Assembly (NCBI RefSeq): GCF_013403985.1
Contig: NZ_JABFDF010000006.1
Span: forward strand, 62,001-126,000
Source: Winogradskyella ludwigii
GTDB lineage: Bacteria; Bacteroidota; Bacteroidia; Flavobacteriales; Flavobacteriaceae
Length of the DNA: 64,000 nucleotides
Direction: 5' to 3'
Shown: positions 40,957-56,281 of the stretch, in pieces
Layout: the number at the start of each line of letters is the position of its first letter
Position numbering within the stretch: the first letter of the stretch is position 1
Made by a program: the position numbers and the translations under genes
The notes under the pieces: model-generated
Told to the model about the DNA's origin: nothing
Seen by the model: the letters and a program-made list of their open reading frames with translations, nothing else
Databases searched by the model: none

Positions 40957-41289
40957 ATGGGTTTAACTAAATCAGAAATATTTACAACAGAACAGAATGA
41001 GATTTCAAGCATTGCGAAAGTCTTTGGTCATCCAGCAAGAGTGGCTATTCTTCAGCATTTATTTAAAATTAATTCTTGTATTTGTGGTGATTTGGTTGAA
41101 GAAATTGGTTTAGCTCAACCTACAATTTCTCAGCATTTAAAAGAATTAAAGAAAATTGGACTTATAAAAGGAAACATTACAGGCACTAGTATTTGTTATT
41201 GTATAGACAAAGAGAATTGGACGAATATGAAAACAACGTTATCCGTTTTTCTTAATCAAGATCTTAACGACAACAGCAACTGCTGTTAA
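40957..41289 (+). CDS. arsR: ArsR-family arsenic-responsive repressor
   Basis: The 110-residue winged-helix protein has KVFGHPARVAILQHL, a metalloid-binding-type CICGDL at the start of a helix, and the recognition helix AQPTISQHLKELKKIG. Cys residues 43 and 45 would bind As(III) and release the DNA. The protein ends in NSNCC, an unusual Cys pair also found at the end of the next protein. It heads a four-gene arsenic operon with a palindromic operator just upstream. Confidence 0.92.
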   Translation: MGLTKSEIFTTEQNEISSIAKVFGHPARVAILQHLFKINSCICGDLVEEIGLAQPTISQHLKELKKIGLIKGNITGTSICYCIDKENWTNMKTTLSVFLNQDLNDNSNCC

Positions 41290-41313
41290 ATAAAATTATA
41301 AAAACATAGATTT

Positions 41314-41784
41314 ATGAAACTTTCAGAAATTAAATCAGAATTAAAAACATTAAAAACCATAGCGTTTCAATTACCAAACGGAACTTTAGTACCAAATCAC
41401 TTTCACGTTACCGAAGTGGGAAAAATATCAAAACACTTTATTGATTGTGGTGGAACCGTTAGAACTGAAAACGTTGCCAACTTTCAACTTTGGGAAGCAG
41501 ACGATTATGACCATAGATTACATCCTGAAAAACTACTCGATATTATTGAACTTTCTGAAAAAGTTTTAAATATTGAAGATTTAGAAATTGAAGTGGAATA
41601 CCAAGGAGATACTATTGGAAAATATGGGTTGGACTTTGACGGCAAAAACTTTTTATTGACCAACAAGCTTACAGATTGCTTAGCGAAAGACAAATGTGGT
41701 ATTCCTACAGAAAAACCAAAACTTAAGTTTTCTGATTTACAAAATGAAGCTCCATCATGTGCTCCAGGTTCTGGATGTTGCTAA
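41314..41784 (+). CDS. DUF6428 family protein of the arsenic operon
   Basis: The 156-residue protein resembles the DUF6428 family found in Bacteroidota ars operons. It has LPNGTLVPNHFHVTEVG at residues 19-35 and a conserved middle, WEADDYDHRLHPEK. The C-terminal tail is Cys-rich (CLAKDKCG, then SCAPGSGCC). The six C-terminal cysteines suggest metalloid or metal binding. It lies between arsR (24 bp) and the phosphatase-like gene (19 bp). No activity is known. Confidence 0.8.
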   Translation: MKLSEIKSELKTLKTIAFQLPNGTLVPNHFHVTEVGKISKHFIDCGGTVRTENVANFQLWEADDYDHRLHPEKLLDIIELSEKVLNIEDLEIEVEYQGDTIGKYGLDFDGKNFLLTNKLTDCLAKDKCGIPTEKPKLKFSDLQNEAPSCAPGSGCC

Positions 41785-41803
41785 CTATTAAAACATAAAC
41801 ACT

Positions 41804-42418
41804 ATGATATTTCAACTAATAAACACGCAAATAGATCAATTACATATTGATTCTATTTCTGAAGAACGTAAAACGATATTACAACCACTCATCGATTACA
41901 TTCAACTTAAAACAACAGAAAACAAAGCTGTTAATTTAAACTTTATCTGTACTCACAATTCCCGTCGTAGCCATTTATCTCAAGTTTGGGCACAGACCTT
42001 GGCATCGCATTTTGAAATAAACAATGTATTTTGTTATTCTGGCGGAACCGAAGCCACAGCATTATTTCCTGTTGCAGCTAAAACACTTGAAAATACAGGG
42101 TTTCAGATTGAAATGCTTTCAAATGGAGACAATCCTGTTTACAGCATAAAATATTCAGGAAACGCACATCCAATTATTGGTTTTTCTAAAACATTTGATG
42201 CCTCTTTTAATCCGACTTCAGGTTTCACTGCAATTATGACGTGTTCTAGTGCAGATAAAGGGTGTCCATTTATTGCAGGTGCAGAAAAACGGATTCCTAT
42301 TACTTATGAAGATCCAAAAGCATTTGATAATACACCACAACAATTAGAAAAATATAATGAACGTAGTCTTCAAATTGCTACAGAAATGAAATATGTATTT
42401 TCTAACATCGTAAACTAA
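41804..42418 (+). CDS. arsC: LMW-phosphatase-fold arsenate reductase-like protein
   Basis: The 204-residue protein has the low-molecular-weight phosphatase P-loop CTHNSRR (CX5R, Cys near residue 49), and later [10 protein letters not shown] near the C-terminus. The [10 protein letters not shown] segment adds cysteines that could relay electrons in arsenate reduction. The position between DUF6428 and the arsenite exporter supports arsenate reduction to arsenite in the cytoplasm. A phosphatase role is the alternative. Gap to acr3 is 5 bp. Confidence 0.82.
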
Positions 42419-42423
42419 TTACA

Positions 42424-43476
42424 ATGACTGCAATCAAAAAAAAATTAAGCTTCTTAGATAGTTACCTAACATTATGGATCTTTATTGCCATGGTAATTGG
42501 TGTTGGTATCGGCTTTTTTGTACCATCATTCCCTAAACTTATAGAATCATTTAGTAGCGGAACCACGAATATTCCCATAGCGATCGGACTTATTTTAATG
42601 ATGTATCCGCCACTCGCTAAAGTGAATTATGCGTTACTTCCAAAAGTATTTAAGGATGTAAAAATCTTATCGATTTCTTTAGTTTTAAATTGGATTATTG
42701 GTCCTGTATTAATGTTCATTTTAGCGATTACCTTTCTACAAGATTATCCAGAATATATGGTGGGCTTAATCTTAATTGGTTTGGCGCGTTGCATTGCTAT
42801 GGTTTTAGTTTGGAATGATTTAGCAGAAGGTAGTAGCGAATATGGAGCCGGTTTAGTCGCTTTAAATAGTATTTTTCAAGTTTTTGCTTATAGTTTTTAT
42901 GCGTATTTATTTATTACAGTACTTCCACCCTATTTTGGTTTTGAAGGTGCAATTGTAGATATTTCTATTGGAACGATTGCAGAAAGTGTAGCTATTTATT
43001 TAGGGATTCCATTTTTATTAGGCATCCTTTCTCGTTTAATATTAGTGAAACTAAAAGGAGAAGTTTGGTACACTACCAAATTTATTCCAACGATTTCACC
43101 CATGACTTTAATTGCTTTATTATTTACCATTGTGGTTATGTTTTCGCTTAAAGGGGAATTGATTGTAGAAATACCAATGGATGTACTGATTATTGCAGTG
43201 CCTTTATTAATATACTTTACACTGATGTTTGTTATTGGCTTTTTTGTTAGTAAAGCCATGGGAACAACTTACGATAAAACCGCAGCCATAGCATTTACCG
43301 CAGCTGGTAATAACTTTGAATTAGCTATTGCTGTAGCAATCTCTGTTTTTGGGTTAAACTCTGGTCAAGCCTTTGCAGGTGTGGTTGGTCCATTAGTAGA
43401 AGTGCCAGCATTAATTCTTTTAGTACGTGTCGTATTTTGGCTTCGAAAAAAATATTATTTACCACAAAAAGCATAA
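42424..43476 (+). CDS. acr3: ACR3-type arsenite efflux transporter
   Basis: The 350-residue protein has ten membrane helices and the ACR3 signatures [13 protein letters not shown] at the start, [18 protein letters not shown] (with the conserved Cys of TM4) near residue 118, and [13 protein letters not shown] in TM9. It exports arsenite from the cytoplasm. It is the last gene of the arsenic operon. A 97-bp region then separates it from the photolyase region. Confidence 0.95.
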
Positions 43477-43512
43477 CTGTTAGTTGTTTTTCCTTTAATG
43501 ATGTTAAAGTTT

Positions 43513-43554
43513 GTTTAACTTTACATAAATATAGTTAAACATAACGTATCTTTA
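43513..43554 (+). promoter_or_regulatory. Operator/promoter A of the photolyase region (GTTTAAC-N14-GTTAAAC, then -7 box)
   Basis: A perfect inverted repeat of 7-bp arms (43513-43519 and 43534-43540) is followed after 6 bp by a -7-like box TATCTTTA (43547-43554), 19 bases before the TetR-like gene. The same arms, same 14-bp spacer and same 6-bp distance recur at 52121-52162. Arm-to-arm distance is 21 bp, two helical turns. No TTTG is found at -33, so expression may depend on the factor bound here or be blocked by it. Confidence 0.75.
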
Positions 43555-43573
43555 CATTGTAAAAACAATTACA

Positions 43574-44230
43574 ATGGCAAAAAAGAAAAACATAAAAGAA
43601 TCAGATCTTATATCATTTTATATGGATTATGTACTTACACATAACCATAAACCAAAAACGGTATATGCATTTGCTAAAGACAACAATTTTGAAGAACAAA
43701 AATTCTATGAATTCTTCAGTTCTTTTGAAACTTTAGAACAATCTATATTTAAAATATTTTTTGATAACACCTTCGCTATTTTAGAGAAAAGCGAAGACTA
43801 TCATTCATTTGATGTACGCAATAAACTTCTAAGCTTTTATTTCACATTCTTCGAGATACTTACAGCCAACAGAAGTTATGTTGTACATGCATTAAGTATG
43901 GATAAAAACAAACTAAAATCTCTCAAAACACTTTCCCATTTAAAGCAAAGTTTTAGTCACTACATAGAGCATTTAGATATTCAAACTATAGATCTTAAAC
44001 AAGAAAAGCTTGAAAAAATAAAAAGTAAAGCGCTCAAAGAATCGGCTTGGTTTCAATTATTAGTTACCATGAAATTTTGGTTAGACGACACGTCAACATC
44101 ATTCGAAAAAACAGACATTTTTATTGAAAAATCTGTTCAGGCAAGTTTCGACTTAATAGACACTACACCTTTAAAAAGCATCATTGACTTTGGTAAATTC
44201 TTATACAAAGAAAAAATGCAAACTAAATAG
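43574..44230 (+). CDS. TetR-like transcriptional regulator
   Basis: The 218-residue, all-helical protein has an N-terminal DNA-binding part with the TetR-type layout (KPKTVYAFAKDNNFEEQKFYEFFSS as helix-turn-helix, about 27-51) and a larger C-terminal ligand/dimer domain with an uncharged core. The helix-turn-helix is divergent from classical TetR. It is the first gene of operon A, just after the inverted repeat, and sits 5 bp before the ABC1 kinase gene, as commonly found in Bacteroidota. It is the obvious candidate to bind the repeats at 43513 and 52121, though direct proof is lacking. Ligand unknown. Confidence 0.75.
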   Translation: MAKKKNIKESDLISFYMDYVLTHNHKPKTVYAFAKDNNFEEQKFYEFFSSFETLEQSIFKIFFDNTFAILEKSEDYHSFDVRNKLLSFYFTFFEILTANRSYVVHALSMDKNKLKSLKTLSHLKQSFSHYIEHLDIQTIDLKQEKLEKIKSKALKESAWFQLLVTMKFWLDDTSTSFEKTDIFIEKSVQASFDLIDTTPLKSIIDFGKFLYKEKMQTK

Positions 44231-44235
44231 AGCTT

Positions 44236-45546
44236 ATGAAAACTATAGACAGCATACCAATGACCAAAATATCTAGAGCAACTAAATTAGTTTCTACTGG
44301 AGCCAAAGTTGGTGTGAATTACCTAAAGTATTATGGAGATAAAATGGTAAACTCTAAAGAAGATGCCAAAGAACGTCTCAATAAAAATAATGCAGAAGAT
44401 ATTTACGACAGCCTTAAAACATTAAAAGGTAGCGCACTTAAAGTTGCACAAATGTTAAGCATGGAAAAAAGCATATTGCCACAAGCTTATGTAGAGAAAT
44501 TTTCGTTATCTCAATTTTCCGTACCACCATTATCACCACCTTTAGTTATAAAAACATTTAAAAAATACTTTGGTAAACATCCCGAAGATATATTTGACAC
44601 TTTCAACGCAACTTCAGTAAATGCTGCCAGTATTGGCCAAGTCCATATTGCAGAGAAGAATGGGAAAAAATTTGCTGTGAAAATCCAATATCCTGGAGTT
44701 GCAGAAAGTATCGCGTCAGATTTAGCTTTGGTTAAACCCATTGCAATTAAAATGTTTAATATTAAAGGAAAAGATTCTGATAAATATTTTAAAGAGGTTG
44801 AAAACAAACTTACCGAAGAAACTAATTACATCCTAGAAATAGAACAAAGTAAAGCAGTTGCTGAAGCTTGCGAACATATTCCTAATCTTAAATTTCCAAA
44901 ATATTATGAGGAATTTTCTTCTGAGCGTATTATCACAATGGATTACATGAAAGGCGAACACCTTTCGGAATTTGTAGCACATAATACTAGTCAAGAACTT
45001 TCGAATCAATTAGGGCAAGCACTTTGGGATTTTTACATGTTTCAAATTCATAACCTTCGTAAGGTACATGCTGATCCTCATCCTGGTAATTTCTTAATAT
45101 CTGAATCTGGTGATTTAATTGCACTCGATTTTGGTTGTATGAAAACGATTCCAGAAGATTTTTACATTCCATATTTTGAATTAGCAGAAAAAGAATGCAT
45201 TGAAAACCCGAAGTTATTTACTGAAAAACTCTATGAATTAGAAATTTTAAGAACCGATGATTCTGAAGAAGAAATAAAATTCTTCAGCGCCATGTTTCAT
45301 GAATTATTAAGCTTGTTTACAACACCTTTCCATGTTGAAGAATTCGATTTTTCAGATCCTGAATTTTTCAATCGTATTTCAGAAATGGGACAACGCTATT
45401 CAAAAAGTACAGAATTAAAGAATATGAATGGTAACAGAGGCTCTAAACACTTTATTTATATCAATAGAACCTTCTTTGGATTGTATAATTTAATGTTCGA
45501 TTTAAAAGCTGAAAATGTGCAAATAAACAATTTCAAAAATTTATAG
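44236..45546 (+). CDS. ABC1 (AarF/UbiB) family atypical kinase
   Basis: The 436-residue protein has the ABC1 kinase-like fold. The family KxGQ motif is present as KVAQMLS (near 75-81), with Ala in place of Gly. Then come AASIGQVH, the ATP lysine in FAVKIQYPG, HADPHPGNFL and LDFG. There are no clear membrane helices at the C-terminus, unlike UbiB of proteobacteria. In eukaryotes ABC1 proteins support quinone synthesis; here it is in a photolyase operon, which suggests a role in lipid, quinone or cofactor metabolism under light stress. Substrate unknown. Confidence 0.88.
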   Translation: MKTIDSIPMTKISRATKLVSTGAKVGVNYLKYYGDKMVNSKEDAKERLNKNNAEDIYDSLKTLKGSALKVAQMLSMEKSILPQAYVEKFSLSQFSVPPLSPPLVIKTFKKYFGKHPEDIFDTFNATSVNAASIGQVHIAEKNGKKFAVKIQYPGVAESIASDLALVKPIAIKMFNIKGKDSDKYFKEVENKLTEETNYILEIEQSKAVAEACEHIPNLKFPKYYEEFSSERIITMDYMKGEHLSEFVAHNTSQELSNQLGQALWDFYMFQIHNLRKVHADPHPGNFLISESGDLIALDFGCMKTIPEDFYIPYFELAEKECIENPKLFTEKLYELEILRTDDSEEEIKFFSAMFHELLSLFTTPFHVEEFDFSDPEFFNRISEMGQRYSKSTELKNMNGNRGSKHFIYINRTFFGLYNLMFDLKAENVQINNFKNL

Positions 45547-46185
45547 ATGTTAGAATTCAGCAGTGAAGACATTGACGAAATGGAGCATTTATACAGAATA
45601 AACCTAATTAATAGTTGTTCTGGTTACAAGTCTGCCAACCTCATTGGCACAAAAAGCGAAGATGGTTTTAGTAACCTTGCTATATTTAGTTCAATCACAC
45701 ACTTAGGTTCTAATCCTGCTTTGTTAGGTTTCTTTTTAAGACCAACAACTGTGATACGCAACACCTATTCTAATATTAAAGCAACAGGAAAATACACGAT
45801 TAATCATGTGCATTCTGAAATTATAGAAGATGCACATCACACATCTGCCAAATACGATTCAGATATTTCAGAATTTGATGTGACACGATTAACCGAAGAT
45901 TATAAGGATGATTTTTTAGCACCATTTGTAAAGAACTCACCTGTGCAAATGGCCATGCAATTTGTAGAAGAATATCCAATTGCTGCAAACAATACCATTC
46001 TTGTTATCGGTAAAATTGAAAAATTATTCATTGACAATACGCTCATTGAAGACGATGGTTTTGTAAATTTATCTAAAGGTAATATAGCGACCATAAATGG
46101 TTTAGATGGTTACGCTATACCTCAATTAAAAACACGTTTAGAATACCAACGACCAAAATCACAATTTGCAAATCTTACAGACTAA
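45547..46185 (+). CDS. Flavin reductase-like FMN-binding protein
   Basis: The 212-residue protein has a split-barrel flavin-reductase domain: SCSGYKSANLIGT, SNLAIFSSITHLGSNPALLGFFLRP split over residues 40-65, and NTYSNIKATGKYTINHV. Homologues reduce or bind FMN. It follows the kinase gene with no gap and overlaps the SDR gene by 1 bp. Reduced flavin is what photolyases need, so it might help keep FAD or FMN reduced, but that is inference. Confidence 0.85.
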   Translation: MLEFSSEDIDEMEHLYRINLINSCSGYKSANLIGTKSEDGFSNLAIFSSITHLGSNPALLGFFLRPTTVIRNTYSNIKATGKYTINHVHSEIIEDAHHTSAKYDSDISEFDVTRLTEDYKDDFLAPFVKNSPVQMAMQFVEEYPIAANNTILVIGKIEKLFIDNTLIEDDGFVNLSKGNIATINGLDGYAIPQLKTRLEYQRPKSQFANLTD

Positions 46186-47603
46186 TGAAAATACTCATCA
46201 CAGGCACAACTGGTTACATCGCTAAAAGATTAGCGCTTCAACTATTAGAAGACAAGCACGAGTTGGTGTGTTGCGTCCGTGATTTAAGTCGTATTCCAGA
46301 TGAAATTGAAGACAATCCCTTGTGTTCTTTTATAAAAGTAGACTTTTTAGAGCCAGAAGCTGCTGAGATTCCAAAAGATATAGATGCCGCGTATTATCTC
46401 ATTCACTCTATGTCTACAGGTTCTGATGATTTTGAAGATTTAGAACAAAAATGTGCTCAAAATTTTAAAAATTTAGTAGAACCAACGCAATGCAAACAAG
46501 TTATTTATTTAAGTGGAATTGTAAATGACACATCACTTTCTAAACACTTAAAATCGAGATTACAAGTAGAAAACACTTTACAATCTGATAAATATGCTTT
46601 AACAACATATAGAGCAGGAATTATTGTAGGTAGCGGAAGTGCTTCTTTTGAAATTATAAGAGATATCGTAGAAAAGTTGCCTTTTATGATTACACCAAAA
46701 TGGCTCAACACAAAAACACAACCTTTAGCCATTAGAGATGTTTTAAACTTTTTAGCTGGTGGCTTAGGCAAAGAAGAGTTATATAACCATTCTTTTGATA
46801 TTTTCGGTCCAGAGGTTTTGACTTACAAAGAAATGCTACTTCAATTTGCAGAAGTAAGAGGCTTTAAACGATATATCGTAACGCTTCCTGTTTTAACACC
46901 CAAACTCTCTTCGTATTGGTTATACTTTGTAACCTCTACATCTTTTAAATTAGCTGCAGCTTTAGTAGATAGTATGAAGGTTGAAGTCATTGGGAAACCA
47001 AGTAAAATCAATGAAATTATTGGCATAAAACCCATGGATTATAAAACGGCTGTGGATTTAGCTTTTCAAAAAATAGAACAAAATGCTGTCATATCTAGCT
47101 GGAAAGATGCTGTAAGTAGCGGACGCTTTAAAGACCAACTATCTAAACATATAGAGCTACCACAATACGGTTGTTTTACAGATGAAAAAAAACGCCCTGT
47201 CACAGATGAAGAATATACTTTAAATAAAATTTGGGGTATTGGAGGACGAAACGGCTGGTACAGTTTTAATGGACTCTGGAAAATTAGAGGCTACATGGAT
47301 AAACTATTTGGTGGTGTAGGTTTGAGACGAGGACGTACAAGCGACACGTATTTAGAAGCTGGTGATGCATTAGATTTTTGGCGTGTATTATACGCTAGTA
47401 AAGAAGAAAAAAGACTTTTACTTTTTGCAGAAATGCGATTACCAGGCGAAGCTTGGCTCGAGTTTAAAATTGTAAAAGGCCAATTACACCAACGTGCCGT
47501 TTTTAGACCAAAAGGACTTTGGGGACGCTTATACTGGTATGCTGTTTTACCGTTTCATGCTTTTGTATTTAATGGTATGATTAACGCCTTGGTAAAAAAA
47601 TGA
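46185..47603 (+). CDS. Atypical SDR with C-terminal DUF2867 domain
   Basis: The 472-residue protein has an NAD(P)-binding Rossmann domain of the extended/atypical SDR type at the N-terminus ([32 protein letters not shown]). A second half (about 320-472) matches DUF2867 with [12 protein letters not shown] and the [11 protein letters not shown] pattern. Such proteins are common in photolyase/carotenoid regions and are thought to act on lipids or isoprenoids; no activity is proven. It overlaps the preceding gene by 1 bp and the DUF2256 gene by 4 bp. Confidence 0.87.
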
Positions 47604-47749
47604 AAGGTGTAAAAAAAGCTAATCTTCCCACAAAATTATGTCCTGTTTGTAACCGACCTTTCTCTTGGCGCAAAAAATGGGAAAAGAACTGGAACGATGT
47701 AAAATATTGTAGTGAAAAATGCAGAAGACAAAAAACAATAGCAATTTAG
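47600..47749 (+). CDS. DUF2256 zinc-finger-like small protein
   Basis: This 49-residue ORF was found by eye. It contains [14 protein letters not shown] and YCSEKCRR, two CxxC-type pairs that match DUF2256 and could bind one zinc. DUF2256 genes often lie next to photolyases and cryptochromes. The ATG overlaps the SDR stop (ATGA). It overlaps the DASH cryptochrome gene by 31 bp in another frame, so the three genes look translationally coupled. Role unknown. Confidence 0.85.
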
Positions 47750-49026
47750 TATGGTTTAGAAATGATTTAAGAACCATTGATAATGCCGTTTTAATTGAAG
47801 CTCAAAAAAATGGCACCAAAGTTATTGCTGTCTATTGTTTTAACCCGCTTCACTTCTCTTTTGATAAATTCGGGTTTAAAAAAACAGAAAAATTTAGAGC
47901 TAAATTCTTGATAGAAACTGTAACTGATTTAAAAACTCAATTAAAAAAATTCAATATTGAATTATTAGTTTTTCATGCCCAACCAGAAGAGGTTATTCCA
48001 AAAGTATGCGAAACTCACAACGTTAATCACATTTTTCTTCAAAAGGAATGGACAGAAGAGGAAATTAGCACTGAAAATGGAGTAAAATCTAAGCTTAAAA
48101 ATATAAACTGGCATTCTATCTACAATCAGTTTTTGTACCATCCTGATGATATAAATTTTGATATTTCAGAAATACCACAAGTATTCACAAACTTTAGAAA
48201 AGCTGTTGAAAAGCAAAGTAAAATTCAAACAGAATTAAGTTTAAAAAAGTTACCTGAATCAAACCGAATTGAGAATAACACCAGCATACCAACACTTAAA
48301 GATTTAGGGTTTGAAGATTTTGAAATAAATACTAACTCTGCTTTTCCATTTAAAGGAGGAGAAACTGAAGCTCATAAACGACTAAACGATTATTTTTTCA
48401 ATACTAAAAAACTAGGATTTTATAAAAAGACGAGAAATGGATTAGTTGGTATTGACTATAGCTCAAAGTTTTCTGCATGGCTTGCAAATGGTAGTCTTTC
48501 TGCTAAAACAATTTACTGGCAAGTCAAACAATTTGAGAAAGAGCATTATAAAAACCAGTCGACCTATTGGTTAATTTTTGAATTGATTTGGCGCGATTAT
48601 TTTAAATACATTTCATTAAAACATGGCAGTCATATTTTTAAATTAGAAGGGATTCTTCAAAAAGAGTACACTTGGAAAACTGACCAAAATTCTATTCAAA
48701 ACTGGATAAATGGAGAAACAGCATCTGATTTTGTAAATGCCAACATGCTCGAATTAAAAAACACAGGTTGGATGAGCAACAGAGGACGACAGAACGTAGC
48801 ATCCTATTTTGCCAAATCCTTAGAGCTCGATTGGCGTATTGGTGCTGCTTATTTTGAGTCACTCCTACTCGATTATGACGTGCATAGTAATTATGGCAAT
48901 TGGATGTATGTTGCAGGAGTTGGCAATGACCCAAGAGACAGAACATTCAATGTTCAATTGCAAGCAGAACGTTACGATCCCAATGGAAAATTTAGAAACT
49001 TATGGCTACAACCTCGTTTATTTTAA
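47719..49026 (+). CDS. DASH-type cryptochrome
   Basis: The 435-residue protein has the photolyase alpha/beta domain ([12 protein letters not shown] at the N-terminus) and the FAD-binding domain with [30 protein letters not shown] and the [11 protein letters not shown][12 protein letters not shown] stretch typical of Cry-DASH. Cry-DASH repairs pyrimidine dimers in single-stranded DNA and may signal blue light; its antenna is usually methenyltetrahydrofolate. The start overlaps DUF2256 by 31 bp and the next gene follows after 25 bp. Confidence 0.93.
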
Positions 49027-49051
49027 TTAAAAAAGTAAAAAGCTACAATCA

Positions 49052-50584
49052 ATGAAAACATTAAGACTCATACTAGGTGACCAACTCAATTCTAAACACT
49101 CATGGTTTACAGAAACCAATGAGAACGTTACCTATTGCCTATTTGAAATGCGACAAGAAACAGATTATGTAACGCATCATATTCAAAAAGTAATTGGCTT
49201 TTTTGCTGCTATGAGAAGTTTTGCTGAAGAACTTCAATCCAATGGTCACAATGTGATTTACTTCAAAATTAATGATACAAATAACACTCAGAGTTTAGTC
49301 GAAAATCTTTCAAAATTAATTAAAGACTACACTATTCAATGTTTTGAATATCAATTACCTGATGAATACCGTTTAGATGAACAATTAACCACATTTTGCA
49401 AATCATTAGGTATTGAAACGAATACTTATGATTCCGAACATTTTTACACTTCTAGATACGAACTAAAAGAATTCTTTGAAGGTAAAAAGACGTATCTCAT
49501 GGAAAACTTTTATCGCAACATGCGTAAAAAGCATGAAGTATTAATGGAAGGTAAACAACCTGAAGGAGGCAAGTGGAATTACGATAAAAGCAACAGAAAA
49601 AAATGGAAAGGCAAGCCCGAAATCCCACATTACAAATGGTTTATTAATGATGTTTCAGAAATTGTTTCAGACATTAAGAAAGCCGGCATAAAAACCATTG
49701 GTCGCTTTAAAACAGAGACGTTTAGTTATCCTATAAACAGAAATCAAGCTCTTGAGCAGCTCAATTATTTCTGTGAGCATTTATTAATTCGTTTTGGTGA
49801 TTACCAAGATGCGATGCATACAGACCAAGTTTATTTATTTCATTCGCGTATTTCCTTTGCTATGAATATTAAACTGATTAGTCCCAAGGAAGTTATAGAC
49901 ACTGTGATTGATTATTACTACGACCATAAATCTGAAATAGACATCTCTCAAGTCGAAGGTTTTGTGCGACAAATTATTGGCTGGCGAGAATATATGCGAG
50001 GTATGTATTGGACATTAATGCCAGATTACAAATCTGAAAATCACTTAAAAAACACCAATAAACTTCCAGATTTTTTCTGGACAGGCAACACAAAAATGAA
50101 TTGCCTAAAGCAGAGCATCAATAATTCTTTAGATAATGCTTATGCGCATCACATACAGCGTTTAATGATAACAGGAAATTATGTCTTATTAACTCAAATT
50201 CATCCAGACGAAGTAGACGCTTGGTATTTGGGTATCTATGCAGATGCTATAGAATGGGTGCAATTAACCAATACTAGAGGTATGAGTCAATTTGCAGATG
50301 GCGGAAAAATTGCGACAAAACCCTATGTCTCTTCAGGCAGTTACATTGACAAAATGAGTAACTATTGCGATAAATGTCACTACAACAAAAAAGAAAAAAC
50401 AACAGACAATGCGTGTCCTTTTAATAGCTTGTATTGGAATTTCTTAGATGATAAACGCTCTATTTTAGGAAATAACAGACGCATGGCAATTATGTATAGT
50501 TTATTAGACAAAATGGACAAAAGTCAACTCAATAGTATGAAAGAACGTGCCGCTGCCATTATAGAAAATCCAGATGAATACTAA
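49052..50584 (+). CDS. Iron-sulfur bacterial cryptochrome/photolyase (FeS-BCP, (6-4) photolyase type)
   Basis: The 510-residue protein belongs to the prokaryotic (6-4) photolyase group like Agrobacterium PhrB. LRLILGDQLN is the N-terminal signature, and the FAD domain has IGWREYMRGMYW and TNTRGMSQFADGG. The four [4Fe-4S] ligands are clearly present: Cys351, Cys439, Cys442 and Cys455, each one residue higher than C350, C438, C441 and C454 of PhrB. The group repairs (6-4) photoproducts and carries a lumazine antenna. It overlaps the next photolyase gene by 11 bp. Confidence 0.95.
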   Translation: MKTLRLILGDQLNSKHSWFTETNENVTYCLFEMRQETDYVTHHIQKVIGFFAAMRSFAEELQSNGHNVIYFKINDTNNTQSLVENLSKLIKDYTIQCFEYQLPDEYRLDEQLTTFCKSLGIETNTYDSEHFYTSRYELKEFFEGKKTYLMENFYRNMRKKHEVLMEGKQPEGGKWNYDKSNRKKWKGKPEIPHYKWFINDVSEIVSDIKKAGIKTIGRFKTETFSYPINRNQALEQLNYFCEHLLIRFGDYQDAMHTDQVYLFHSRISFAMNIKLISPKEVIDTVIDYYYDHKSEIDISQVEGFVRQIIGWREYMRGMYWTLMPDYKSENHLKNTNKLPDFFWTGNTKMNCLKQSINNSLDNAYAHHIQRLMITGNYVLLTQIHPDEVDAWYLGIYADAIEWVQLTNTRGMSQFADGGKIATKPYVSSGSYIDKMSNYCDKCHYNKKEKTTDNACPFNSLYWNFLDDKRSILGNNRRMAIMYSLLDKMDKSQLNSMKERAAAIIENPDEY

Positions 50585-52067
50585 CAGAGAACATATCAAT
50601 GTGGTTTGGTTAAAACGCGATTTGCGTCTTCAGGATAATGAAGCTATTTCTAATGCTTTAAAATCTGGTAAACGCACACTAATTATCTATGTCTTTGAGC
50701 ATTTATTATTAAACGATGTGCATTATAGCGAACGTCATTTTAATTTCATAAAAGAATCTATTCAAGATATCAATAAACAACTTTCAGCATATAATTCTAA
50801 AGTGCTAACCGTTACTAGCGACATTTCAAGTACATTTAATCAGTTACAAGAATTTTATAGAATTAAAACCATTTATTCTCATGTTGAAACAGGCTTATTA
50901 GTGACCTACGATAGAGATAAAGAATTTATACGCTATTGCAGAAATAATTTCATCACTTGGAAAGAATCTAAGAACAATGGTGTTGAACGTGGCATTGTAA
51001 ACAGAGACCATTGGTTTGATAATTGGGAAACCTATATGACGAGTCATTTGGAAGTGTTTCAACCTTCAGAAAATCAACTGTTGAATATTTCTGAAATTGA
51101 ACACTTAGAACAGTTGTTTTCCGTAACAGATTTACACACACCTGACGTTACAAAGTTTCAAAAAGGAGGAACAACTATAGGTTGGAAATACGCAAATTCA
51201 TTTTTTGAAAGTCGACATAAAAATTACATGTCTAATATTTCAAAACCAGAAGCCTCAAGAAGCAGTTGCAGTCGTATTTCACCTTATATAGCTTGGGGAA
51301 ATTTATCTATTCGTCAAGTTTTTCAAAAAGCACAAGAATTAAAAGTCAAAACATCAAACCATAAACATATTGGTGCTTTTATTTCACGTTTACGTTGGCA
51401 AGCGCATTTTATTCAGAAGTTTGAAATGGAACATACCATGGAAAACGCAAGTGTTAACAAAGGCTATCATAAACTCAAAAAAACATTATCTATAAATTAC
51501 CAAAATGCTTGGAAAGAAGGTCAGACTGGTTTCCCATTAGTAGATGCTTCAATGCGTTGTTTAATTGAAACTGGTTACGTTAATTTTAGAATGCGTGCCA
51601 TGTTGGCATCTTTCTTTACTCACATACTTTGGCAACCATGGCAGTTTGCAACCACACACCTATCTCAACAGTTCTTAGATTTTGAACCTGGTATTCATTT
51701 TCCGCAATTGCAAATGCAAGCGGGCGAAACTGGTATTAATAATCTAAGAATTTATAACCCAACACTCAATGGATTAAAGCACGATCCTGAAGCTTTATTT
51801 ATTAAAAAATGGGTTCCAGAATTAGCACATTTAGACACACCATTTATCCATGAACCTTATCTAATGACTGTGTTAGAGCAAGGACTGTACAACTTTAAAC
51901 TTGGTGAAGATTATCCGTTGCCAATAGTAGACATAAAGGAAAACCGTAAACTCGCCAGCGATATTCTTTGGAATATGAAAAACGATTCGGAAGTGATGAG
52001 TGAAAGTTTCAGAATATTAAAACGACATACCTTACAGGACAGAAAGCGTATGTTAAGAAGCGATTAA
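50574..52067 (+). CDS. Cryptochrome/photolyase family protein of unassigned class
   Basis: The 497-residue protein has the photolyase architecture: VVWLKRDLRLQDNEA at the N-terminus, then a FAD-binding half with SRLRWQAHF, GFPLVDASMRCL, RMRAMLASFF and NNLRIYNPT. It is distinct from the DASH, FeS and CPD paralogues in this region, and I cannot place it in a named class. It could be a photolyase or a light sensor. It starts inside the end of the FeS-type gene (11-bp overlap) and ends operon A; 102 bp later operon B begins. Confidence 0.85.
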   Translation: MNTNREHINVVWLKRDLRLQDNEAISNALKSGKRTLIIYVFEHLLLNDVHYSERHFNFIKESIQDINKQLSAYNSKVLTVTSDISSTFNQLQEFYRIKTIYSHVETGLLVTYDRDKEFIRYCRNNFITWKESKNNGVERGIVNRDHWFDNWETYMTSHLEVFQPSENQLLNISEIEHLEQLFSVTDLHTPDVTKFQKGGTTIGWKYANSFFESRHKNYMSNISKPEASRSSCSRISPYIAWGNLSIRQVFQKAQELKVKTSNHKHIGAFISRLRWQAHFIQKFEMEHTMENASVNKGYHKLKKTLSINYQNAWKEGQTGFPLVDASMRCLIETGYVNFRMRAMLASFFTHILWQPWQFATTHLSQQFLDFEPGIHFPQLQMQAGETGINNLRIYNPTLNGLKHDPEALFIKKWVPELAHLDTPFIHEPYLMTVLEQGLYNFKLGEDYPLPIVDIKENRKLASDILWNMKNDSEVMSESFRILKRHTLQDRKRMLRSD

Positions 52068-52120
52068 ATACCTTACCACATAGGCTTAAGCCTTATAGTC
52101 ATAATTATCTGTTAATTTTT

Positions 52121-52162
52121 GTTTAACTATATAAGTGTATCGTTAAACATTCTGTATATTTG
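52121..52162 (+). promoter_or_regulatory. Operator/promoter B of the photolyase region (GTTTAAC-N14-GTTAAAC, then -7 box)
   Basis: The arms at 52121-52127 and 52142-52148 are identical to those of site A, with the same spacer length. A perfect -7 box TATATTTG (52155-52162) follows after 6 bp and ends 7 bases before the start of the next gene. The spacer sequence differs from that of site A, so the shared arms are not just a copied segment. This strongly suggests one regulator for both operons. Confidence 0.8.
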
Positions 52163-52169
52163 AACAGAT

Positions 52170-52601
52170 ATGATACTGAACACCACACATTCTAACACCG
52201 AACACAAACAGATTATTGCTGACTTAGTTGGCAGTTCTTTTAGTTTGGTACAGAAATTGAAAATGAATGGTATAGGTTCTAAACGGATGATTATTGATAA
52301 AGTGAGTCCAAATATGCAATCGATGATGAATTTGGTTTCTGATATTAATTACGGAAATATTGAATTGAGACCTAAAGGCATTTTGGTAAGAATTAACAAA
52401 GGATTAAAAAACTTTACGTGGATTATTCCTTATTACCATCTCGTTATATATAAAATCAATGGATCTAGCATACATGCACAAGGAAAATTTGTGCATTTTA
52501 GAGCGAGTAAAACTTTTAAAGAAAACAAAAAGTTTTTTGACAAGTTAATGGATGAGAAGATAAAGTACGATATGCAATACGCAATGCCTCAAGACCTATG
52601 A
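52170..52601 (+). CDS. Photolyase-region conserved protein of unknown function
   Basis: The 143-residue soluble protein is not recognised. It has no signal or membrane helix. Visible features are an N-terminal helix with IADLVGSSFSLVQKL and a beta-rich middle (YYHLVIYKINGSSIHAQGKF-like, about 86-105). It is the first gene after operator B, and its stop overlaps the next start by 4 bp. Its position as leader gene of operon B suggests it matters to the light/stress response. Confidence 0.75.
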   Translation: MILNTTHSNTEHKQIIADLVGSSFSLVQKLKMNGIGSKRMIIDKVSPNMQSMMNLVSDINYGNIELRPKGILVRINKGLKNFTWIIPYYHLVIYKINGSSIHAQGKFVHFRASKTFKENKKFFDKLMDEKIKYDMQYAMPQDL

Positions 52602-52870
52602 ATTTAGAACTAAAAGACATTGATAGAATTATTGAAATGGCATGGGAAGATAGAACACCCTTTGATGCTATTACTTTTCAATTCAAATTAAAAGAACAAG
52701 AGGTTATTAATTTAATGAGACGTGAATTAAAGCCAAGTAGTTTTAGATTGTGGCGCAAACGCGTGCAAGGCAGAGCTACTAAACACAGTAAAAAAAGAAC
52801 GTTTGACGAAGGCAGATTTAAATGCTCTAGACAAAGAACAATATCAAATAACTCTATTTCAAAACGTTAA
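52598..52870 (+). CDS. TIGR03643 family protein
   Basis: The 90-residue protein matches TIGR03643: DIDRIIEMAWEDRTPFDAI, then LMRRELKPSSFRLWRKRV, and a very basic tail. It resembles a small helix-turn-helix-like DNA-binding domain, but no target is known. The family is repeatedly found near photolyase genes. It overlaps the previous gene by 4 bp. A -7-like TAAGTTTG lies at 52885-52892, before folE. Confidence 0.85.
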   Translation: MNLELKDIDRIIEMAWEDRTPFDAITFQFKLKEQEVINLMRRELKPSSFRLWRKRVQGRATKHSKKRTFDEGRFKCSRQRTISNNSISKR

Positions 52871-52925: not shown

Positions 52926-53618
52926 ATGATTAAAGAAATCATTTCCAAAAAAAATAATCAAAACCTAGACTCTTTTAGTAATGAAGACATAGGAGACGAT
53001 CATTTAAGTACAGGTATAGACACACCTATGAAGCCCAATGCTTTTGAAATGTCTAATACAGAAAAAAAAGAACGGATCTCAATATTATTTTCAGAAATAA
53101 TGGATGTTATGGGTCTAGATTTAACCGACGATTCATTAAAAGGCACACCAGATCGTGTTGCTAAAATGTATGTTGAAGAAATATTTTCTGGTTTAGATCC
53201 CGAAAATAAACCTAAAGTTACACTTTTTGATAATAAGTATAAGTACAACCAAATGCTTTTAGAAAAAAACATTACTTTTTATTCTAATTGCGAGCATCAT
53301 TTTGTTCCGATCATAGGAAAAGCACATATTGCATACAAATCTTCAGGAAAAATCATTGGATTGTCAAAAATAAATCGTATTGTGCAATATTATGCAAAAC
53401 GACCTCAAGTTCAGGAGCGTTTAACAAATCAAATTGCAAACGAACTTAAAACTGTTTTAGAAACAGAAGATGTTGCTGTAATTATTGATGCAAAACACTT
53501 ATGCGTCTCTTCAAGAGGTGTACAAGATGATACGTCAACTACAGTAACAACATATTATGGAGGAGAATTTGATAATGCCTCAAAAATTTTAGAATTACAA
53601 AACTATTTAAACAATTAA
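52926..53618 (+). CDS. folE: GTP cyclohydrolase I
   Basis: The 230-residue enzyme converts GTP to dihydroneopterin triphosphate, the start of folate and pterin synthesis. Zinc ligands are seen in CEHHFVP (Cys and His) and HLCVSSRG (Cys). The substrate residues in KINRIVQYYAKRPQVQERL are normal. The N-terminal 40 residues are less conserved. Its presence in a photolyase operon suggests supply of the folate antenna (methenyltetrahydrofolate) or of pterins; this is inference, and the housekeeping copy may be elsewhere. Confidence 0.93.
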   Translation: MIKEIISKKNNQNLDSFSNEDIGDDHLSTGIDTPMKPNAFEMSNTEKKERISILFSEIMDVMGLDLTDDSLKGTPDRVAKMYVEEIFSGLDPENKPKVTLFDNKYKYNQMLLEKNITFYSNCEHHFVPIIGKAHIAYKSSGKIIGLSKINRIVQYYAKRPQVQERLTNQIANELKTVLETEDVAVIIDAKHLCVSSRGVQDDTSTTVTTYYGGEFDNASKILELQNYLNN

Positions 53619-53862: not shown

Positions 53863-54549
53863 ATGAAAAGATTAATAGTTATCGGAGGAAGCAAAGGTAT
53901 TGGTAATGCCATTATCTCATCTTTGCTTTCTTCCTATGATGAAATTGTAAACATTAGCCGTACAGCACCAGAGGAGTCACATCCCAATTTAAAACATTAT
54001 AGCTGTGACATTCTCAATGACGAATTACCAGAACTAGATGAAGCTGATGGCTTAGTATATTGTCCAGGAAGCATTAATCTTAAACCCATCAATCGCTTAA
54101 GTGTTGATGATTTTAAAAATGACTTTGACATTAATGTCATTGGTGCAGTTAAAGCAATTCAGAAATATATACCTGCTTTAAAAAACGGAAACAAACCTTC
54201 AATAGTTCTCTTTAGTACTGTTGCTGCCAAATTAGGAATGCCTTTTCACGCAAGTGTAGCCGCTTCTAAATCTGCAGTAGAAGGATTAACTAAATCTTTG
54301 GGTGCAGAATTAGCACCAGGAATACGAGTAAATGCTATAGCACCAACAGTAACAGATACTGAGTTAGCTTCAAAATTACTGCGTAACGAAAGGATGATTG
54401 AGAACATGAATGAACGTCATCCTCTAAAAAAGTTCCTACAACCAAAAGAAGTTGCAGATATGGCTGGTTTTTTATTATCAGAAAAGGCGGCTTCTATGTC
54501 AGGTCAAATATTTGAAATGGACTGCGGAATCGTAAGTTTCAAATTGTAA
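53863..54549 (+). CDS. SDR-fold protein lacking the catalytic tyrosine
   Basis: The 228-residue short-chain dehydrogenase-like protein has the coenzyme motif GGSKGIGNA, a Ser at the active-site position in LFSTVAAK, and the lysine of YxxxK, but the tyrosine is Val (VAASK, encoded by GTA). The rest of the fold and the C-terminal FEMDCG are intact. Classical SDR catalysis needs this Tyr, so it may act differently or only bind NAD(P). It lies in the middle of operon B. Confidence 0.85.
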   Translation: MKRLIVIGGSKGIGNAIISSLLSSYDEIVNISRTAPEESHPNLKHYSCDILNDELPELDEADGLVYCPGSINLKPINRLSVDDFKNDFDINVIGAVKAIQKYIPALKNGNKPSIVLFSTVAAKLGMPFHASVAASKSAVEGLTKSLGAELAPGIRVNAIAPTVTDTELASKLLRNERMIENMNERHPLKKFLQPKEVADMAGFLLSEKAASMSGQIFEMDCGIVSFKL

Positions 54550-54579
54550 AACACACATAATTTATTTTAAAATAACGAT

Positions 54580-55068
54580 ATGATAGCTACTGCTACGCAA
54601 TCCGTGTACAATATAAAGATTGATAGCCTTCAAGGTGATCCCATAGATTTAGGACGCTTTAAAGGTAAAAAAATACTGATTGTAAATGTGGCTTCAAAAT
54701 GTGGATTTACATCTCAATATAGAGACCTACAAGCGCTTCAAGATAAGTATATAGAATCGTTAGTTATTATTGGTGTTCCATGTAATCAATTTGGAGAACA
54801 AGAGCTAGGCAGTGCGAGTGACATACAAGAGTTTTGTAAAGTTAACTATGGTGTTTCTTTTTTAATGACAGAAAAAATTAATGTGAAAGGTGCTCATAAA
54901 CACCCTTTGTATACTTGGCTAACAGAGAAATCTCTAAACGGTAAACAAACCACTACTATCAAATGGAACTTTCAAAAATATTTAATAGATGAAAATGGTA
55001 ATTTTTTAGATTACTTCTATTCTATTACAAACCCTTCGAGTTCTCGATTATTAAAATATTTAAAATAA
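54580..55068 (+). CDS. Glutathione peroxidase-family protein
   Basis: The 162-residue thioredoxin-fold peroxidase has the catalytic Cys in VASKCGFT, the Gln in PCNQFGEQE, and the Trp/Asn in KWNFQKYL, which complete the GPx tetrad. It uses Cys rather than selenocysteine and probably takes electrons from thioredoxin. It would detoxify lipid and other hydroperoxides formed under light stress. There is no signal peptide. Confidence 0.92.
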   Translation: MIATATQSVYNIKIDSLQGDPIDLGRFKGKKILIVNVASKCGFTSQYRDLQALQDKYIESLVIIGVPCNQFGEQELGSASDIQEFCKVNYGVSFLMTEKINVKGAHKHPLYTWLTEKSLNGKQTTTIKWNFQKYLIDENGNFLDYFYSITNPSSSRLLKYLK

Positions 55069-55074
55069 AAAATT

Positions 55075-55245
55075 ATGTTCGGACTTTTTAAGAAAACAAC
55101 TGAAGTAGAAAAGCTTTCAAAACAATATGAAAAACTGATGGCAGATTGGCATAAGCTCTCTACAACTAACAGAGGCGAGAGCGACAAAAAATATGCTGAA
55201 GCTCAAATAATTATGGATAAAATTGAACAACTAAAAAAAGCTTAG
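55075..55245 (+). CDS. Lacal_2735-like small helical protein
   Basis: This 56-residue ORF was found by eye. It starts MFGLFKKTTEVEKL and continues with a single long charged helix (YEKLMADWHKLSTTNR...AEAQIIMDKIEQL), matching the small Lacal_2735 family of flavobacteria. It lies 6 bp after the GPx gene and 1 bp before tspO. Its role is unknown. Confidence 0.75.
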   Translation: MFGLFKKTTEVEKLSKQYEKLMADWHKLSTTNRGESDKKYAEAQIIMDKIEQLKKA

Positions 55246-55246
55246 C

Positions 55247-55711
55247 TTGAAAAACATTTATCTTGTTTTACTATTTCTTTTCATAAATTTTGGCGGCCTT
55301 GCCCTTGGACGATGGTTTATGGGAGACGCTGTGACAGGCGTATGGTATACCAACTTAAACAAAGCCCCTTGGACACCACCTGGTTGGGTTTTTGGTGCAG
55401 CATGGACCTTAATAATGGTTTGCTTTTCAGTGTATTTAAGTTATTTATTTTCTATTAGAAACTCAAAAGTTGTCATCACGTTATATGTTATTGCAGTGAT
55501 TCTTAATGTGAGTTGGAATTACCTATTTTTTAATCAGCATTTAACAACATTGGCATTTATTAATATTATCTGTTTAACGTTGCTTATCACCTACTTCTTC
55601 ATCACGTTTGGAGACGACAAATTATGCCACTTAAAATATCTATTAATGCCTTATATCATTTGGCTGTGTATTGCAACATCGCTAAACGGTTACGTTCTGT
55701 TTAATAATTAG
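55247..55711 (+). CDS. tspO: TspO/MBR family membrane protein
   Basis: The 154-residue protein has five membrane helices and TspO signatures: WYTNLNKAPWTPPGWVFGAAWTLI (residues 37-60 in part) and NVSWNYLFF. The start is a TTG codon at 55247, 1 bp after the previous stop. TspO proteins bind porphyrins and other tetrapyrroles and respond to light or oxidative stress in other bacteria; this fits a photolyase regulon. No ligand is shown here. Confidence 0.93.
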   Translation: MKNIYLVLLFLFINFGGLALGRWFMGDAVTGVWYTNLNKAPWTPPGWVFGAAWTLIMVCFSVYLSYLFSIRNSKVVITLYVIAVILNVSWNYLFFNQHLTTLAFINIICLTLLITYFFITFGDDKLCHLKYLLMPYIIWLCIATSLNGYVLFNN

Positions 55712-55774
55712 TATTTATAACAATCCACAACGCTAACACACATTTTTAATTTATTTACTTCAATTATCTAGGAA

Positions 55775-56236
55775 ATGAAAATATACACGTTACACAAGAA
55801 ACAAAATTTACCAATCACAATAGATCAGGCTTGGGAATTTTTATCGAGTCCTGCAAACTTAAAAACCATCACACCAGATTATATGAGTTTCGACATCCTT
55901 TCTGGTGCAGACAGACCTATGTTTCCAGGTCAAATTATTCAATATATAGTGACACCTGTTTTAGGTATAAAAACAAAATGGGTAACAGAAATCACGCATG
56001 TTAAAGACAAAGAATATTTTGTAGACGAGCAACGTTTTGGACCTTATGCACTTTGGCATCACAAACATTTTATAAAAGAAATTGAAGGTGGTGTAGAAAT
56101 GGAAGATATTATAGATTACAAAGTACCAATGGGTATTTTAGGACAGCTTGTGCATCCTATTATCGTTAAACCTAAATTGGAAGAAATTTTTAAATACAGA
56201 ACAACAAAGTTGGAAGAACTATTTGGCAAATATTAA
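55775..56236 (+). CDS. SRPBCC (START-like) family protein
   Basis: The 153-residue protein has the START/Bet v 1-like fold: LPITIDQAWEFLSSPANLKTITP at the N-terminus, DEQRFGPYALWHHKHFIKE in the middle, and a long C-terminal helix. It binds an unknown hydrophobic ligand in a cavity. Such proteins commonly sit next to photolyase genes in Bacteroidota and proteobacteria. It is followed 45 bp later by the CPD photolyase. Confidence 0.85.
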   Translation: MKIYTLHKKQNLPITIDQAWEFLSSPANLKTITPDYMSFDILSGADRPMFPGQIIQYIVTPVLGIKTKWVTEITHVKDKEYFVDEQRFGPYALWHHKHFIKEIEGGVEMEDIIDYKVPMGILGQLVHPIIVKPKLEEIFKYRTTKLEELFGKY

Positions 56237-56281
56237 ATCAATAGTAACAAATCGTTTAAAGTTGAAATTAGAGTAGATATT

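Follow-up and report, generated by a model that had tools for sequence, protein, structure and literature searches.

Two exact copies of an inverted repeat, GTTTAAC-N14-GTTAAAC, stand at the heads of two transcription units that include photolyase genes in a 64,000-nucleotide stretch of the Winogradskyella ludwigii genome (the window). Comparison with relatives indicates that the element is a real, conserved regulatory site heading both units. The two copies, operators A and B, are very probably operators of CarH/LitR, the MerR-type photoreceptor and repressor that works with adenosyl-B12 (adenosylcobalamin, AdoCbl). On our best reading of the comparative data, the CarH operator would join photolyase, cryptochrome, folate, carotenoid and fasciclin genes in one regulon responding to B12 and light. 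The sequence elements concerned are the following.

43502-43507, plus strand: TGTTAA, a third half-site 10 bp before the left arm of operator A, read from the sequence
43513-43540, plus strand: operator A, inverted repeat, exact match, full sequence GTTTAAC-TTTACATAAATATA-GTTAAAC
43547-43554, plus strand: putative -7 box of promoter A, TATCTTTA, read from the sequence; relatives have similar bases at the same offset
52110-52115, plus strand: TGTTAA, a third half-site 10 bp before the left arm of operator B, read from the sequence
52121-52148, plus strand: operator B, inverted repeat, exact match, full sequence GTTTAAC-TATATAAGTGTATC-GTTAAAC
52155-52162, plus strand: putative -7 box of promoter B, TATATTTG, read from the sequence; relatives have similar bases at the same offset

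An earlier note on this DNA had described two sites with identical arms, a 14-bp spacer and 6 bp to a -7 box, and its coordinates and sequences proved exact. The gap of 6 bp separates the right arm from a TAnnTTTR-like -7 box at both operators, and the canonical -33 TTTG is missing at both promoters, just as that note had said. With their flanks, operator A reads TGTTTA (43512-43517) and TAAACA (43536-43541) and operator B reads TGTTTA (52120-52125) and TAAACA (52144-52149), which is TGTnnA ... TnnACA in both cases. The symmetric arms reach beyond the 7 bp noted at first, to TGTTTAAC...GTTAAACA at both operators.

The pattern scan bore out that no further complete copy exists in the window: only A and B are exact, and the other seven matches each carry three mismatches. 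The total of nine matches (at most three mismatches) is that expected after shuffling (9.23). In first-order Markov simulations of the window, exact copies averaged 0.001 and two or more arose in none of 3,000 runs. A genome-wide search, proposed in the earlier note, returned only the same two exact copies from the whole 4.0 Mb genome. At up to two mismatches the genome gives 32 matches versus 78 for a reversed-pattern control. The pattern is therefore rarer than its control at that threshold, and information resides only in exact or near-exact sites. The genome has three one-mismatch matches (C22:364579, C22:531934 and C28:155684); the second falls inside a coding region.

The repeat is kept in relatives at the same two addresses. 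We examined 66 fetched loci with a TetR-like gene such as the one behind operator A, using genes with at least 60% identity to the window protein and 130 bp of upstream DNA. Among 55 TetR-like gene promoters, the minimum number of mismatches was 0, 1, 2 and 3 in 40, 13, 1 and 1 cases (54/55 at two or fewer), and among 50 promoters of the orphan gene behind operator B it was 0, 1 and 2 in 27, 18 and 5 cases (50/50). Promoters of 13 other cluster genes carried no site at up to two mismatches (0/584) and seven at three; the gene for the deoxyribodipyrimidine photolyase-related protein (DPRP) contributes only three promoters under this filter. In named loci, the TetR-like gene promoter had the site at up to three mismatches in 79 of 79, one of the 80 loci (L337) having been dropped for a missing flank. 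The exact site was found in 52 of 99 genomes searched, our own included, versus 9 of 99 for the reversed control, and a site with at most one mismatch in 183 of 249 Flavobacteriaceae versus 50 of 249 (a hand count of the listing).

Within these promoters hardly any change is seen in the arms or in the flanking T and A, and the spacer varies apart from a symmetric TT...AA tendency. The site ends 29-38 bp before the start codon of the TetR-like gene (33 bp at operator A) and 17-22 bp before that of the orphan gene. The left-arm TGTnnA is kept in 79/79 TetR-like gene, 49/50 orphan-gene and 16/16 crtI promoters, and the right-arm TnnACA in 79/79, 48/50 and 16/16, respectively; the crtI set consists of 16 site-bearing loci in plus orientation only. 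A further TGTnnA lies 10 bp upstream of the left arm in 49/79, 43/50 and 0/16 of these promoters. A full tandem array of CarH repeats running through the spacer was considered and rejected because inner TnnACA or TGTnnA half-sites at 10 or 11 bp occur in none or one promoter per set; the outer TGTnnA at -10 alone holds up.

The evidence for CarH comes first from co-occurrence. The site (at most one mismatch), the TetR-like protein and CarH were each searched in the 249 evenly drawn Flavobacteriaceae, CarH being counted as present for strong matches only; 17 weak matches (E about 1e-39 to 1e-48) were scored as absent. Site and strong CarH occurred together in 172 genomes, the site alone in 11, CarH alone in 14 and neither in 52 (odds ratio (OR) 58, p=1e-29). 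If the weak matches are scored as present, the table reads 176, 7, 27 and 39. The same counts for the TetR-like gene were 142, 41, 17 and 49 (OR 10). The effect of CarH was seen both among genomes with the TetR-like gene (site in 136/144 with CarH versus 6/15 without, p=6e-7) and among those lacking it (36/42 versus 5/48, p=1e-13). The effect of the TetR-like gene among CarH-bearing genomes was weak (136/144 versus 36/42, p=0.09). In genomes without strong CarH, the site rate (11/63) is close to the rate of the reversed control, and chance may thus account for much of it.

The W. ludwigii genome contains two MerR_1 matches, one a protein with MerR and B12-binding_2 domains and the other an open frame of 116 amino acids (aa). 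The CarH-type gene shares a contig with operator A, some 82-83 kb upstream of it, and directly precedes crtI (TIGR02734, above cut-off) and a crtB-like phytoene/squalene synthase gene (SQS_PSY). Its product matches PF13411 in the DNA-binding domain (E 4.1e-16) and PF02607 in the B12-binding domain (E 4.5e-9). Its best PDB matches are Thermus CarH (5c8d), of which W131, E141, H142 and H177 are kept; the W-x9-EH motif and the lower-ligand histidine are also kept in 30/30 strong-match CarH relatives.

In other genera, the site adjoins carH itself. Among the 30 best-scoring carH loci, all orientations included, 25 have it with zero or one mismatch, starting 12-24 bp behind the carH stop codon; the five loci without it include those of our own genome and its genus mate G011. 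The gene after this site was crtI in the seven cases compared by BLAST, and the other cases show matching starts. The -7 box TATATTTG of the crtI promoters falls within the spacer; that of the photolyase promoters is 6 bp beyond the repeat. The dyad of these predicted promoters sits next to the start of the -7 box or on the -33 region, respectively. The place of the element relative to the promoter therefore varies, which fits a blocking repressor.

A scan of 42 site-bearing loci identified as next genes those for the TetR-like protein, CrtI, the orphan protein, a fasciclin-domain protein and a Porph_ging-family protein. FolE, a DASH cryptochrome (137 bp away) and the 153-aa protein of unit B were each seen a single time, and several site matches had no convincing target gene. 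These sites before carotenoid and other genes in relatives make a small regulon likely. In our own genome, the one-mismatch copy C22:364579 (L003:1501-1528 / L151) lies between a fasciclin-domain gene (Pfam) and a divergent MORN-like gene, and the equivalent place carries exact copies in G011, G030 and G032; an operator before the fasciclin gene is plausible. Exact or one-mismatch sites also stand before related secreted-looking proteins in L030, L146, L148, L149 and L177; that of L148 belongs to the Porph_ging family (Pfam) and the other four are similar in sequence. G013 has a single exact site (L133:7149), in a gap with no obvious target, and no target gene was assigned to the exact sites of L044 and L150. 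A few exact matches may be due to chance.

The arms themselves point to CarH. The right arm holds TAAACA and the left arm its complement, in agreement with TnnACA, the published CarH half-site (PMC9304148), of which a longer form has also been described (PMC8156234). The residue at position 26 of the recognition helix is Ile in 30/30 strong-match CarH proteins. In the 17 genomes having only a weaker match, to a more distant MerR-B12 type (33-39% identity), it is Lys in 14 and Ile in 3. Upstream (within 220 bp) of Lys26 carH-like genes, repeats related to GTCTAAC-N14-GTTAGAC were found in 11 of 14 cases (at most three mismatches; G126 weakly), and these repeats carry TAGACA where the standard arms carry TAAACA; repeats of the GTC/GAC type were found upstream of none of the three Ile26 carH-like genes.

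The change is also seen before the TetR-like gene, where a GTCTAA arm occurs in 4 of 6 Lys26 genomes versus none of the 56 genomes whose CarH is a strong match or has Ile26 (Fisher p=2.7e-5), a comparison of few genomes in which the six Lys26 genomes with a TetR-like gene possibly share ancestry, the match criterion is loose and residue 26 was read in 30 strong-match loci rather than in all 53 strong-match genomes. Five fetched TetR-bearing genomes without any CarH match, none with a GTCTAA arm, were left out of this table. The left arm is altered in G136, G138, G164 and G327, and both sides are in G136 and G138 (the spacer of G138 being 15 bp), while G123, an Ile26 genome, shows a perfect GTTTAAC/GTTAAAC at its TetR-like gene. 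In the four altered genomes the TetR-like proteins (57-59% identity) show no greater divergence than several that come with standard arms: G100 and G266 have exact sites with TetR-like proteins at 57% and 54% identity. Arm-sequence changes thus tend to go with CarH residue 26, not with TetR divergence. G123 additionally has a mixed GTCTAAC/TTTAAAC repeat near, not upstream of, its Ile26 carH-like gene.

We infer from these comparisons that CarH binds and represses at operators A and B in a manner dependent on B12 and light. In the dark, AdoCbl-loaded CarH oligomers would bind the inverted TnnACA half-sites, probably together with the upstream third half-site, and bound CarH would mask the -33 region and shut out RNA polymerase. 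Light would cleave AdoCbl, so that CarH would fall apart and release the DNA. Unit A (TetR-like protein, ABC1, flavin reductase, SDR, DASH cryptochrome and photolyases) and unit B (orphan protein, DUF2805, FolE, SDR, glutathione peroxidase, TspO and photolyase) would then be transcribed.

The earlier note had proposed instead that the TetR-like protein encoded right behind site A binds both sites as an autoregulator. Its gene is suitably placed, the site being kept before it in 54/55 loci, and the protein has a TetR fold with an N-terminal three-helix helix-turn-helix (HTH). Site and TetR-like gene do correlate, nominally even in genomes without strong CarH (6/15 versus 5/48, p=0.016). This idea has nevertheless become improbable, since the site follows CarH more than the TetR-like gene (OR 58 versus 10), lies behind carH in 25/30 loci and has arms that vary with a CarH residue. 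The site is present in 36 of 42 CarH-bearing genomes that lack the TetR-like gene, for example before crtI (G170, G228, G241) or FAS1 (G217), and absent from 9 of 15 TetR-bearing genomes without strong CarH. Six TetR-bearing genomes have no CarH match at all, and four of the five that were fetched show no site (at most two mismatches) before the TetR-like gene. Moreover, paralogues and homologues of the protein keep their pairing with ABC1 where the full site is missing, the protein has no TetR_N match in Pfam and COQ9 is among its weak structural matches.

Winogradskyella supplies the closest named relatives of the TetR-like protein (93% identity). The AlphaFold2 (AF2) model of the protein (mean pLDDT 85.6) has the HTH helices at residues 9-23, 30-36 and 41-47. 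Foldseek places it among TetR repressors, with human COQ9 at ranks 17, 19, 33 and 45 (E 0.02-0.05) and only one PDB structural match with E below 0.001; a PDB sequence search gave nothing useful, and the NCBIfam COQ9 match (15.8 bits) falls far under the cut-off of 74.55. The ABC1 kinase gene comes next in 66/66 loci, and the pairing recurs in loci of other families without a site before the gene. COQ9 is a TetR-fold lipid binder whose partner in quinone synthesis is COQ8, an ABC1 protein. Given this pairing, the likeness to COQ9 and the COQ9-COQ8 partnership, a lipid- or quinone-related role is no less likely than repression. The protein may nonetheless bind DNA at other places, or do so alongside CarH. 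The TetR_C_23 and ABC1 genes (43574-45546) are possibly a COQ9/COQ8-like pair rather than a repressor and its neighbour. Three same-genus genomes (L135, L136 and L137) carry a second TetR-like/ABC1 pair, at 49-53% identity and without the full operator.

A different regulator that co-occurs with carH, either the second short MerR protein of our own genome or some co-inherited factor, might bind the site, although we rate this a shade below even the TetR autorepressor. The second MerR match, in the 116-aa open frame, offers a candidate, and the MerR relatives TnrA and GlnR read a similar TGTNA core. Also in favour, a short MerR protein of 109 residues, MliR of Bizionia argentinensis, functions in iron homeostasis (PMC9478572). 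However, any such regulator must account for the site behind carH, for the arm change with CarH residue 26 and for the near-chance site rate in carH-less genomes. Least credible of all is that an alternative (ECF-type) sigma factor uses the repeats as a promoter element: the 6 bp to the -7 box at both sites and the missing canonical -33 would suit it, but the -7 box of the predicted crtI promoters falls within the spacer, so the promoter position is not fixed, and the symmetric arms are often altered on both sides in Lys26 genomes.

Several observations weigh against CarH as the regulator. Our own CarH has Gln at H132, and its best NCBIfam match, the CarH equivalog NF052513, reaches 66 bits against a cut-off of 400; by this sequence measure it is a divergent relative, not the NCBI-defined equivalog. 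The missing canonical -33 TTTG could mean that an activator is needed. Known CarH operators consist of three or four tandem 11-bp direct repeats (PMC9304148), in contrast to the flavobacterial TGTnnA-N18-TnnACA inverted repeat, of which the only tandem part, at photolyase promoters, is the extra upstream TGTnnA 10 bp away. In the survey, 14 CarH-bearing genomes lack the site at up to one mismatch and 11 have it without a strong CarH match, although four of these 11 (G123, G164, G196 and G327) carry the weak-match CarH type; the TetR-like gene correlates with the site as well, as described above. Two of the six Lys26 genomes with a TetR-like gene (G112 and G265) show neither arm form clearly. 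Finally, the inverted repeat lies behind carH in 0 of 30 same-genus carH loci (30 of 57 matches), so the link to CarH rests on other genera and on the nearly identical recognition helix. The carH promoters of these 30 loci have the conserved half-sites TTGTTAAT and, about 39 bp on, TATTTTTGTTTAAACA; in most of them (L153:1400-1490, L215, L405-L432) TTGTTAAT is followed at ~39 bp by TATTTTTGTTTAAACATTTT, which holds the palindrome TGTTTAAACA. This is another arrangement of CarH-like half-sites.

The genes behind the operators, all on the plus strand, are listed below.

43574-44230, plus strand: TetR_C_23 protein, 218 aa, TetR fold, first gene behind operator A (Pfam PF17931, E 6.9e-46)
44236-45546, plus strand: ABC1/AarF atypical kinase (Pfam PF03109)
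45547-46185, plus strand: flavin reductase-like protein (Pfam PF01613)
46185-47603, plus strand: NAD-binding SDR plus DUF2867 protein (Pfam PF11066, PF13460)
47719-49026, plus strand: DASH-family cryptochrome (NCBIfam TIGR02765, above cut-off)
49052-50584, plus strand: DPRP (Pfam PF04244)
50574-52067, plus strand: photolyase/cryptochrome family protein (Pfam PF03441, PF00875)
52170-52601, plus strand: orphan 143-aa protein, first gene behind operator B, behind the site in 50/50 loci
52598-52870, plus strand: DUF2805 / TIGR03643 protein (Pfam, NCBIfam)
52926-53618, plus strand: GTP cyclohydrolase I, FolE (Pfam PF01227)
53863-57586, plus strand: rest of likely unit B, with SDR, glutathione peroxidase, TspO/MBR, a 153-aa protein without family match and a photolyase (56282-57586) (Pfam, NCBIfam)

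Gene order and strand make it likely that unit B reaches to 57586, and the gene order of this region is largely kept in relatives. The orphan 143-aa protein matched no family in Pfam or NCBIfam; its gene is one of the two tied most closely to the operator. Upstream of operator B, positions 52100-52109 form a CATAATTATC block whose TAATT is kept in orphan-gene promoters (0.84-1.00 per base) and is not found at operator A. Directly upstream of operator A (40957-43476) lies an arsenic-type cluster with an ArsR-family repressor, an SBF-family transporter and two genes between them, which is partly kept in many relatives. A short unlisted open reading frame of ~49 aa at 47600-47749, with C-x2-C and C-x3-C, overlaps the start of the DASH cryptochrome gene; we take it to resemble DUF2256.

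The proposed system resembles CarH/LitR of Thermus thermophilus, Bacillus (Priestia) megaterium and myxobacteria in the MerR and B12-binding domains, the W-x9-EH motif, the lower-ligand histidine, the linkage to crt genes and a TnnACA half-site overlapping a promoter, which is a predicted one here. Unlike those systems, the regulon would extend to photolyase, cryptochrome, folE and FAS1 genes. TnrA is a sequence match of the CarH domain in the PDB, and TnrA/GlnR operators are inverted repeats with a TGTNA/TNACA core and a shorter N7 spacer; these regulators differ from flavobacterial CarH in sensing domain and regulon. The gene content (photolyases, cryptochrome, FolE, SDR) resembles the light-inducible gene sets of Pseudomonas, where class II LitR (PplR/PmlR) of P. 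putida and P. mendocina represses photolyase (phrB), cryB, folE and SDR clusters (PMC9758184). The PplR/PmlR sites, TGTACA-N12-TGTACA, share the TGTnnA/TnnACA core with the flavobacterial operator, with a spacer of N12 versus N18; class II LitR of P. mendocina acts through a LOV protein (PMC9758184), whereas the flavobacterial protein keeps the B12-ligand residues.

The light regulation of Flavobacteriia seems mostly unassigned in the literature searched. A study of light-induced carotenoids in Chryseobacterium reports no car or lit genes and leaves the regulator open (PMC7064467), and a photolyase gene cluster is one mark of proteorhodopsin-bearing marine strains (PMC5932025). No CarH operator in Bacteroidetes was found in the open-access literature, among the matches listed and mostly from titles and abstract starts, with subscription papers outside the search. 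We lean towards a light regulon common to the family Flavobacteriaceae, comprising carotenoid genes, several photolyase and cryptochrome genes, FolE and the fasciclin and Porph_ging surface proteins, that would be read by one CarH. In such a regulon the half-sites of the inverted repeat would stand about one helical turn wider than those of classical MerR dimers, residue 26 (Ile or Lys) would act as the switch between TAAACA and TAGACA, and the binding mode would be new for CarH in the literature we looked at.

An operator with a named photoreceptor makes light regulation in Flavobacteriia testable. If the assignment to CarH is true, it tests how far CarH operators can vary, and the residue-26 specificity switch would be useful for light-controlled gene switches. 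For the bacteria themselves, it would mean that the repair of sunlight damage in these inhabitants of the sea depends on B12.

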